From positions 1,061,384 to 1,125,383 of the forward strand of contig NZ_LUKD01000001.1 of the NCBI RefSeq assembly GCF_001592745.1: DNA of 64,000 nucleotides, written 5' to 3'. Origin of the DNA: Bdellovibrio bacteriovorus (GTDB taxonomy: Bacteria; Bdellovibrionota; Bdellovibrionia; Bdellovibrionales; Bdellovibrionaceae). The notes beneath the pieces were generated by a model. The model was not told the DNA's origin. It made no database searches and was given only the letters and a program-made list of their open reading frames with translations. Each line of letters starts with the position of its first letter. The stretch's first letter is position 1. This document shows, piece by piece, positions 29,417-31,896 of this stretch. Both the position numbers and the translations under genes were made by a program.

Positions 29417-29440
29417 AAAGCCACTCTTAGGAGTGGCTTT
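29417..29440 (+). terminator. Terminator of the rhodanese-nucleotidase unit
   Basis: Stem AAAGCCACTC-TTAG-GAGTGGCTTT followed by TTTTTG. Confidence 0.9.
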
Positions 29441-29562
29441 TTTTTGCCCAAAGGCGATAGCGACTTTAACCGCAACCCCTAATACCCCCCCAAAGAAACC
29501 GCGACCACTCAATTGGCACTCGGCGTTATCTCATTAATTTCAAATAATTAGCCCGGACCTCT

Positions 29563-29630
29563 AGTACTGTACAAAACTTAGTACTTTACATTACACAGTA
29601 CCTAGCATAGCTTGGTACTGGAAAGGCGTT
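29563..29630 (+). promoter_or_regulatory. Four-copy 17-bp phased repeat before padR, candidate operator array
   Basis: AGTACT at 29563, AGTACT at 29580, AGTACC at 29597 and GGTACT at 29614 recur exactly 17 bp apart; the rest of each unit is partly conserved (GTACAAAACTT, TTACATTACAC). The last unit reaches the padR start region. Each hexamer is itself palindromic or nearly so. The likely reading is binding sites for PadR or for RNA polymerase control; not established. Confidence 0.6.
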
Positions 29631-29633
29631 GTT

Positions 29634-29951
29634 ATGAATGCTCAGTTTAAAAAAGGTGTGCTTGAACTTTCGGTGCTCACCCTGATCGGTCGCAAAGACT
29701 ACTACGGCTATGAATTGGTGGAGGAAATTTCTAAGGTTTTAGAAATTTCAGAAGGCACTCTGTACCCCATTTTGCGCCGCTTGACCGAGGAAAAATATTT
29801 TGAAACCTACCTGCAGGAATCCTCGGAAGGACCTCCGCGCAAATACTATCGGATTACCAAGCTAGGTAAAGAGTTCCAAAAGGAACAGTTCAAGCAGTGG
29901 GTGGAATTCAATCAACAAATCGAAAAATTAATTGGCAGGGACATTATATGA
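29634..29951 (+). CDS. PadR-family transcriptional regulator
   Basis: 105 aa, the small PadR class. The winged-helix pattern is clear: FKKGVLELSVLTLIGRKDYYGYELVEEI, then EISEGTLYPILRRLTEEKYFETY (recognition helix and wing), and the wing strand ending GPPRKYYRITKLGKEF. Such regulators often repress their own operon. The stop overlaps the start of the DUF1700 gene (ATGA), so it is the first gene of a PadR-DUF1700-DUF4097 operon, a module well known in Firmicutes. The repeat array directly upstream is its candidate operator. Confidence 0.92.
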   Translation: MNAQFKKGVLELSVLTLIGRKDYYGYELVEEISKVLEISEGTLYPILRRLTEEKYFETYLQESSEGPPRKYYRITKLGKEFQKEQFKQWVEFNQQIEKLIGRDII

Positions 29952-30520
29952 CGAAACAAGAGTTTCTAAAAAATCTGAAAGAGGAGCTTGAAAAAAACAA
30001 AGTTCAAAATGTTCAAGATATTCTGACAGACTACGAAGAACATTTTGTGCATGGCCTTAGCAAAGGCAAAACGGAAGTGGAAATTTGCGAAGGTTTAGGC
30101 TTTCCCTCCGTCATCGCTAAAGCATATCAAACCGAAAGCTTGATCAGCGAAATCAAAAATCCGGAAAAGGGATTTAACTTAAGTTTGGCAGTGACGGTGA
30201 TTGGCCGTTTATTGGTGATCGCCCCTTTTAATTTCCTGATTCTTTTTATTCCCGGCGTTGTGATTTTCGCTCTGCTGGCTTCGGGCTGGGCGGTCTCTGT
30301 AGCTATCGGATCCGCGAGTCTTGCACTTCTTTCGATGCTGCCTTTTTTAGGAACCGTCTCTGCAGGGGCCTGGGCGTGGGTCACGGGACTGTCGACAAGC
30401 TTTGGCCTTCTTGGTCTTGCGATTCTTGGTGGCATGGTGATGTTCGTCATCACTAAGTACATTGTGTTAGCGATCATCAGCTATCTGCAGTGGAATTTAA
30501 AATTCATTCTACAAAAATAG
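29948..30520 (+). CDS. DUF1700/HAAS-domain membrane protein
   Basis: 190 aa from the ATG that overlaps the PadR stop. The N-terminal soluble domain (about 1-70) carries the HAAS signature: MTKQEFLKNLKEEL, ILTDYEEHFVHGLSKGKTEVEICEGLGFPSVIAKAY. The remaining 120 residues hold about four membrane helices (starting SLAVTVIGRLLVIAPFNFLILFIPG). In known modules this protein works with PadR and DUF4097 partners; its job is not established. Membrane location is predicted. Confidence 0.88.
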   Translation: MTKQEFLKNLKEELEKNKVQNVQDILTDYEEHFVHGLSKGKTEVEICEGLGFPSVIAKAYQTESLISEIKNPEKGFNLSLAVTVIGRLLVIAPFNFLILFIPGVVIFALLASGWAVSVAIGSASLALLSMLPFLGTVSAGAWAWVTGLSTSFGLLGLAILGGMVMFVITKYIVLAIISYLQWNLKFILQK

Positions 30521-30529
30521 GAGCCTCAA

Positions 30530-31381
30530 ATGAAATCTCTGGGTCTATTTGGGAAGTTCTTTATCGCGTTTACAATTTGGACGGTGGCTTGCCTGAGTCT
30601 TGCTACCTATGCCGGAAGTAAAGCCTACGAACAAGATCCCACTTTATTAAGTAAAATCGAAGACAACTACAACGTACGTATTCACGTCGGTGGCATCAGC
30701 AAAGCAGACGCTGGCTGGGAAGAAACTAAAGACACATGGAACTTTGCCCCTCCCGTAAAGAAAGTTTCATTTAAGTCGATCAATGCCACGGTGTCCTTTA
30801 AAAAAGGAATCGGCGAAAACATCATCGTCTCAGCGACCGGACGTTTAGATAAAAGCAAAGCCCCCCGCCTTTTAAAAACGGAAGTTCAAGCAGACGAAAT
30901 CATTATTCAGCAGCCTGAAGATGAGGCGACCAGCGAGCTTGACGTGCGAATCGAAGTTCCCCCTTCGTTAGCGAAGAATATCGACATCGTGACCGTCAAC
31001 GGAAATGTTGTGATGGAAAACACGCTTACCGATGAATTGGCGATTAAAACCGTTGCTGGTGATGTGATTTTAAAACAGATTCAGACGCAATCCATCGCTC
31101 TACACAGTGTCTCTGCGGATATCAAAGCCGAAGACATCTCAGCTCAGAAAGTGACTGGAAAGTCGGTCAGTGGAGATCTAGAAGTATCGACACTGACTCC
31201 GGCAGAGGTGGCTTTTACGTCAATTTCAGGCGATGTGAAAATAAAAATGGCCCCGTCAGATAAACTTCGCTTCTCATTAAAATCTGTCTCTGGCGAAATT
31301 CATAATAGCCACGGCAGTAATAAAAATGGCAACATCGGTGTGAGTGTTTCCACAACGAGTGGCGATATCGAGATTGAATAA
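30530..31381 (+). CDS. DUF4097 beta-helix-like repeat protein
   Basis: 283 aa. An N-terminal membrane anchor or signal (about 6-28, GKFFIAFTIWTVACLSLATYAG) is followed by DUF4097 beta-strand repeats (about 80-283): short units with VSGDV/VSGDL/ISGDVKI/TSGDIEI endings that stack as a beta solenoid. AGGAGCC precedes the start. It is the third gene of the PadR module. Role unknown; adhesin-like proteins share the repeat. Exported to the periplasm or membrane-tethered. Confidence 0.85.
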   Translation: MKSLGLFGKFFIAFTIWTVACLSLATYAGSKAYEQDPTLLSKIEDNYNVRIHVGGISKADAGWEETKDTWNFAPPVKKVSFKSINATVSFKKGIGENIIVSATGRLDKSKAPRLLKTEVQADEIIIQQPEDEATSELDVRIEVPPSLAKNIDIVTVNGNVVMENTLTDELAIKTVAGDVILKQIQTQSIALHSVSADIKAEDISAQKVTGKSVSGDLEVSTLTPAEVAFTSISGDVKIKMAPSDKLRFSLKSVSGEIHNSHGSNKNGNIGVSVSTTSGDIEIE

Positions 31382-31395
31382 CTAAGGAAGGTCTT

Positions 31396-31896
31396 ATGAA
31401 AAATCTTTTAATTACAGGTGCTCTTGTTCTTGCCGCAATGACAGCGATGGCTGAAGCAAAAATTGGATTCGTTGATATGCAAAAAGCTATCAAAGCTACT
31501 TCGGCTGGAAAAAAAGCGACGGCAGAACTAGATGCGCAATTCGAATCTGAAAAGAAAAACTTCGAGAAAAAAGAAGCTGAGCTCAAGACCATGGCTCAAG
31601 ACCTTGAAAAGAAAAAAGCCGTGATGTCTGAAGAGGCTTTCAAGGCAAAACAAATAGAATATCAAAAAGCCGTTATGGCCTTTCGTGATTCCATGGCGAA
31701 AAGTCAGAACGAGATCCAAAAGAAGCAAGAGCAGCTGACGGCTCCTATCTTAGAAAAAATGGAAAAAGTCATCGCTCAGGTTTCAAAAGAAAAAGGATTT
31801 ACCATGGTTCTTCAGGACACGCGCATGATCGTCTACTCGGTCGCGGAAGTGGATCTCACTGAAGATGTGGTGAAGGCTTACGAAAAAGAAAAATAG
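31396..31896 (+). CDS. skp: OmpH/Skp family periplasmic chaperone
   Basis: 166 aa. A signal peptide (about 1-20) precedes KIGFVDMQKAI, the conserved start of the OmpH/Skp body. Residues 40-115 form the long charged coiled coil that makes the tentacles (KKNFEKKEAELKTMAQDLEKKK), and the C-terminal part returns to the core with GFTMVLQDTRMIVYS and DLTEDVVKAYEK. Skp holds unfolded outer-membrane proteins in the periplasm. AAGGAAGG precedes the start. It is 14 bp after the DUF4097 gene and may be on the same transcript; in many genomes Skp adjoins bamA, which is not seen here. Confidence 0.88.
   Translation: MKNLLITGALVLAAMTAMAEAKIGFVDMQKAIKATSAGKKATAELDAQFESEKKNFEKKEAELKTMAQDLEKKKAVMSEEAFKAKQIEYQKAVMAFRDSMAKSQNEIQKKQEQLTAPILEKMEKVIAQVSKEKGFTMVLQDTRMIVYSVAEVDLTEDVVKAYEKEK

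Follow-up and report, generated by a model that had tools for sequence, protein, structure and literature searches.

Among PadR-s2 regulators, cdPadR1 of Clostridioides difficile R20291 autoregulates, and TACT(N11-12)AGTA in its own promoter was bound in gel shifts (PMC5050560). Its two repeats are separate (N11, N12), lie 25 and 52 bp in front of the gene and give rise to several shifted bands, and one of them overlaps the -35/-10 region (PMC5050560). In Listeria monocytogenes, LltR represses its own padR-DUF1700-DUF4097 operon (lmo0599-0601) more than 100-fold (PMC6624303). In HAAS-PadR-Toastrack systems, a standalone PadR wHTH protein is accompanied by a neighbouring HAAS membrane protein, which carries a GxP motif, and by a Toastrack protein; these have been proposed as a membrane alternative to two-component signalling, with HAAS passing a membrane signal on to PadR (PMC11237479). 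The canonical operator of LmrR, LadR and PadR is ATGT-N8-ACAT.

The locus described here lies in a 64,000-nucleotide stretch of Bdellovibrio bacteriovorus DNA (NZ_LUKD01000001.1, positions 1,061,384 to 1,125,383, forward strand), hereafter the window. It contains four hexamers at 17-bp steps in front of a padR-HAAS-toastrack operon, and the array is very probably the operator through which the neighbouring PadR controls its own operon, with dimers on three overlapping inverted repeats blocking the promoter and repressing the operon.

The locus resembles the cdPadR1 operator in its TACT-N11-AGTA repeats, of which there is more than one per padR promoter and one over the -35/-10 region, and in the PadR-s2 type of its regulator; autoregulation of the window PadR is proposed by analogy. 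It differs in that the sites form a chain, whereas the cdPadR1 repeats stand apart. The gene order is that of lmo0599-0601, and autorepression of the LltR type is likewise proposed here; unlike the window, the LltR host is Gram-positive and an extra gene, lmo0602, rises with the operon (PMC6624303). With the canonical LmrR/LadR/PadR operator the window would have in common an inverted repeat read by a PadR dimer, but the half-site and the spacing differ.

PadR and its operon

Three genes on the forward strand follow the array:

29634..29951, + strand: padR, encoding a 105-aa PadR-s2 regulator (Pfam PF03551, E 1e-19; nearest solved chain 7wjp)
29948..30520, + strand: gene for a HAAS/DUF1700-type multi-spanning membrane protein (PF22564, E 4.5e-8), with a 4-bp overlap between its start and the padR stop
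30530..31381, + strand: gene for a Toastrack DUF4097 protein (PF13349, E 9.7e-18)

PadR has the size and predicted architecture of the PadR-s2 group (about 100-120 aa, single C-terminal helix), matches PF03551 with 70.7 bits against a cut-off of 27, and aligns nearly end to end with the PadR-s2 structures 4esb, 5dym and 3f8b. The group motif, EGTLYPxLxRLE together with a tryptophan in the last helix, is found in the window as SEGTLYPILRRLT, with the last E changed to T, and W89 is invariant in 18 family sequences. The standalone PadR is adjoined by a HAAS protein whose PF22564 match is above the cut-off, and all 34 scanned proteins downstream of padR in the window and its relatives are HAAS. 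Toastrack is present in the window and in 16 of 19 family neighbourhoods, and most family genomes examined keep it beside HAAS. The operon corresponds to the PadR-HAAS-Toastrack module already described. It had been called a module mostly known from Firmicutes in the initial annotation, and most close relatives outside the window's family do come from Firmicutes. The window's genome yielded no PspA, and Bdellovibrio is not mentioned in the description of HAAS-PadR-Toastrack systems (PMC11237479).

An OmpH/Skp-like gene (31396-31896) begins 15 bp after the Toastrack gene. Among the family genomes examined, such a gene adjoins the cassette only in the window and one relative (L127), and ompH is therefore probably outside the module.

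In the PadR tree, which is weakly supported because the protein is short, Bdellovibrionota sequences fall together, except for a lineage of two congeners (represented by L009) placed near Bacillales. In these congeners (L009 and L010; padR at locus position 1501) no adjacent Toastrack gene like that of the window was found, and their PadR may represent a separate acquisition. When window positions 29634-31381 are compared with L126-L144, PadR is far better conserved (92-93% in the nearest congeners) than HAAS (56-76%) and Toastrack (42-55%), as if the operator-reading part were constrained and the membrane parts diverging.

Sequence and rarity of the array

29563..29619, no strand assigned: whole array, four RGTACY hexamers at 17-bp steps (sequence, GTAC chain and genome counts)

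The hexamers begin at 29563 (AGTACT), 29580 (AGTACT), 29597 (AGTACC) and 29614 (GGTACT), and all four positions and the exact 17-bp steps are as first annotated. The interval originally given, 29563-29630, has the correct start but extends too far, as the array ends at 29619 and the remainder reaches into the Shine-Dalgarno region. Over 17 nt, units 1 and 2 are 76% identical.

The window contains 91 GTAC tetranucleotides, and the array, a chain of four with period 17, is the sole GTAC chain of three or more at periods of 5-100 bp. If positions are taken as independent, as the calculation presumes, the chance expectation of four-chains is about 3e-7 for one period and about 3e-5 for all 96 periods; an origin of the array by chance is excluded for practical purposes. 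The whole 3.755-Mb genome has 12 occurrences of GTAC-N13-GTAC, three of which are the steps of the array, and the core site is unique in the genome at up to three mismatches.

Three overlapping inverted-repeat sites

The array consists of three 19-bp sites of the form TACY-N11-RGTA, scored with a matrix trained on other phyla only:

29565..29583, no strand assigned: O1, upstream predicted operator site TACTGTACAAAACTTAGTA, unit 2 common with O2 (score 13.3; outer half best at 17 bp in relatives)
29582..29600, no strand assigned: O2, central predicted operator site TACTTTACATTACACAGTA (score 22.9; core conserved before padR)
29599..29617, no strand assigned: O3, downstream predicted operator site TACCTAGCATAGCTTGGTA (score 13.5; inverted repeat; outer half best at 17 bp in relatives)

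O1 and O2 are both TACT-N11-AGTA, and O3 is TACC-N11-GGTA, in which the left-half C and the right-half G have changed together, preserving the symmetry. There are, then, two exact sites of the cdPadR1 type (TACT-N11/12-AGTA) and one symmetric C/G variant near the padR promoter. The canonical PadR operator ATGT-N8-ACAT, with half-sites 8-10 nt apart, is absent from 29540-29640. Within each AGTACT, AGTA closes one site as its right half and TACT opens the following site as its left half; the 17-bp step arises because each site has 4 + 11 + 4 bases, minus the 2 (TA) common to neighbours. The symmetric site consensus is TACTTTGCA-W-TGCAAAGTA, with ends TACY and RGTA.

The repeats had at first been read as direct repeats able to bind several PadR dimers or another regulator cooperatively. 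On such a reading each palindromic AGTACT would be the centre of one dimer, and four dimers would stand at 17-bp steps. The perfect palindromy of AGTACT and the retention of TA steps at 17 bp fit this model, but cdPadR1 binds TACT-N11-AGTA and did not bind fragments in which no repeat was intact (PMC5050560). Furthermore, the first unit is conserved on its inner side, with 0.33 vs 0.06 bits per column in Bdellovibrionota and 0.30 vs 0.08 in others, which is expected if the array begins there as a half-site. The contrast in the last unit is weaker (0.50 vs 0.32 in Bdellovibrionota, 0.28 vs 0.22 in others) and confounded by the -10 box. Dimers centred on hexamers are thus improbable, and the direct-repeat reading is not favoured, as both the cdPadR1 unit and the conservation pattern put dimers between the hexamers. 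What stands of the earlier description is that the hexamers are real and that the array looks like a multi-site PadR operator; they are better read as half-sites common to three overlapping inverted repeats, with three sites between hexamers and not four on them.

Conservation in relatives

Distribution of padR is patchy, the gene being present in 25 of 66 family genomes. Upstream regions were compared for 103 padR loci, taken from one family-wide list and one genome-contig scan, with some genomes in both. A core (O2) site, scoring higher than the 99% level obtained with shuffled upstream regions, precedes padR in 92 of these loci, across Bdellovibrionota, Bacillota and others. Removal of near-copies left 69 non-redundant loci, 19 from Bdellovibrionota and 50 from others, mostly Bacillota. 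A symmetrised matrix was trained for each of these groups, and both give the consensus TACTTTGCAATGCAAAGTA.

Outer half-sites were scored alone, to avoid counting bases common to neighbours, and each group was scored with the matrix of the other. An alignment of padR upstream regions from relatives had been suggested as a check in the initial annotation, and it bears out the spacing: the best outer-half offset is exactly 17 bp in all four cross-lineage tests (z 4.1, 3.7, 3.0 and 2.2, values that treat related loci as independent). TA steps at -17, 0, 17 and 34 are found in 13, 19, 19 and 15 of the 19 Bdellovibrionota loci, the median for any offset being 5%, and in 31, 49, 50 and 23 of the 50 other loci. 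Relatives retain the 17-bp step, usually with degenerate outer sites.

Two or more exact sites overlap in 9/19 Bdellovibrionota and 5/50 other non-redundant loci, and exact three-site chains were found in the window and its nearest congeners alone. O2 is by far the best conserved of the three sites, many relatives having degenerate forms of O1 and O3. Such an array had been considered unusual before a small regulator gene, which does not hold, since genes of its PadR family are regularly preceded by the central site and overlapping exact sites recur.

Another explanation is that O2 alone is functional, O1 and O3 being by-products of its palindromic ends and of the promoter, and the full chain in the window a lineage-specific chance. 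The pre-eminence of O2 and the presence of at least two exact overlapping sites in just 14/69 non-redundant loci agree with this explanation, which is nevertheless unlikely, given that the outer halves, absent from O2, have their maximum at 17 bp in each lineage group, that position +23 in the left half of O3 (G, 95%) is kept in Bdellovibrionota, and that the overlapping exact sites are found in nearly half of the Bdellovibrionota loci. Conservation of O2 and O3 may in part reflect the promoter and not the operator.

Promoter and leader

A generic sigma-70 promoter scan made no call within the array, and the putative promoter was instead read from the alignment of upstream regions:

29585..29590, + strand: putative -35-like box TTTACA inside O2 (TTGACA at this place in Firmicutes relatives), from the upstream-region alignment
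29606..29613, + strand: putative -10-like stretch CATAGCTT inside O3 (CATAAT, CATACT or TATAGT in near relatives), register uncertain, from the alignment
29620..29626, + strand: GGAAAGG, Shine-Dalgarno-like, from the sequence

In many Bacillota relatives the core is TACTTGACAATACATAGTA, with a perfect -35 box inside O2, followed by a TATAAT-like box at the place of O3. The spacing between the -35-like and -10-like boxes is best at 17 nt in the TACCTTGCAA class, and spacings of 15 or 17 nt fit about equally in the TTGACA class. The -10 register is ambiguous between two positions, and the -10 of the window is a poor match; judged from the sequence, the start site would be at about 29615-29622. 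As O2 overlaps the -35-like box and O3 the -10-like box, PadR on both would cover both promoter boxes.

The O3 region contains an inverted repeat, 29596-29606/29610-29620, and its 11-nt arms, 91% complementary, might form an RNA hairpin in the leader. A known RNA element was rejected, as Rfam gave no match. The mid-arm sequence is not kept in near relatives, a -10-like box being located there, and the repeat is positioned before or at the predicted start site, all of which makes a leader hairpin extremely improbable.

Farther upstream, at 29417-29440, an intrinsic terminator-like hairpin with a T run follows a 5'-nucleotidase family gene and separates the padR operon from upstream transcription.

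Specificity and predicted regulon

Across the 66 family genomes, the strict core has nine occurrences, one per genome, all within 60 bp of padR. When up to two mismatches are allowed, 14 of 14 sites in these genomes are directly upstream of padR, and none is found in the 41 family genomes without padR. Family sites with three mismatches are a mixture of padR sites and single chance matches. Binding of the array by a regulator other than PadR is very improbable in view of this exclusive co-occurrence with padR, the retention of the sites across phyla having little in common but padR-HAAS, and their match to the proven PadR-s2 operator.

The genome-wide regulon search found no second array in the window's genome, and the regulon is therefore probably the padR operon alone. 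The loose pattern TACY-N11-RGTA occurs at 76 places in the genome, fewer than the 270 of the reversed-pattern control, and single loose matches are therefore uninformative. The genome has a second padR-like gene (L001), which is an unfair control, as the DNA considered was that preceding its Pfam match and not that preceding its start codon.

A 19-bp near-perfect palindrome, TAC[TC][TG]CCAC[CG]GTGG[AC][AG]GTA, is also present in the genome at ten or more places (e.g., G000:C1:230040, 452668, 462932, 698101, 885777, 1900360 and 1900467; C6:91009, 91333 and 91461), some copies carrying T at one central position. Several copies are paired or in triplets, at most a few hundred bp apart, and they are unrelated to the PadR array.

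Proposed mechanism

By analogy with cdPadR1, LltR and the HAAS proposal, PadR dimers would bind the 19-bp inverted repeats with ends TACY and RGTA, at three sites that overlap via common hexamers and have their centres 17 bp apart. PadR on O2 (-35-like) and O3 (-10-like) would occlude RNA polymerase and keep the operon off, O1 and O3 probably contributing affinity or cooperativity to the conserved O2. Upon envelope stress, the membrane HAAS protein, or a ligand, would probably relieve PadR and release the operon.

An offset of 17 bp corresponds to about 220 degrees at 10.5 bp per turn, which would place adjacent dimers on roughly opposite sides of the helix and may let them bind together despite the common bases. 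Neighbouring dimers, having bases in common, might compete instead of cooperate. Changes in spacer length were tolerated by cdPadR1, and the rigid 17-bp spacing may therefore have another cause. It is a tentative and rather doubtful extension of the mechanism that common half-sites load dimers on alternating faces as a cooperative array across -35/-10, acting as a steep switch, and that this arrangement is ancestral in PadR-HAAS systems of several phyla.

Implications

In the open-access literature searched, no description of an overlapping chain for a PadR protein was found, and a search for AGTACT together with PadR gave nothing relevant. The array is a real, mostly expected control element of a known kind. 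It provides a concrete predicted operator for PadR-HAAS, a large and hardly studied class of one-component membrane-stress regulators, and a symmetric consensus usable for regulon prediction. On sequence grounds, the only proven TACT-N11-AGTA example found, that of Clostridioides, would extend to Bdellovibrionota and to most of the Bacillota relatives examined.
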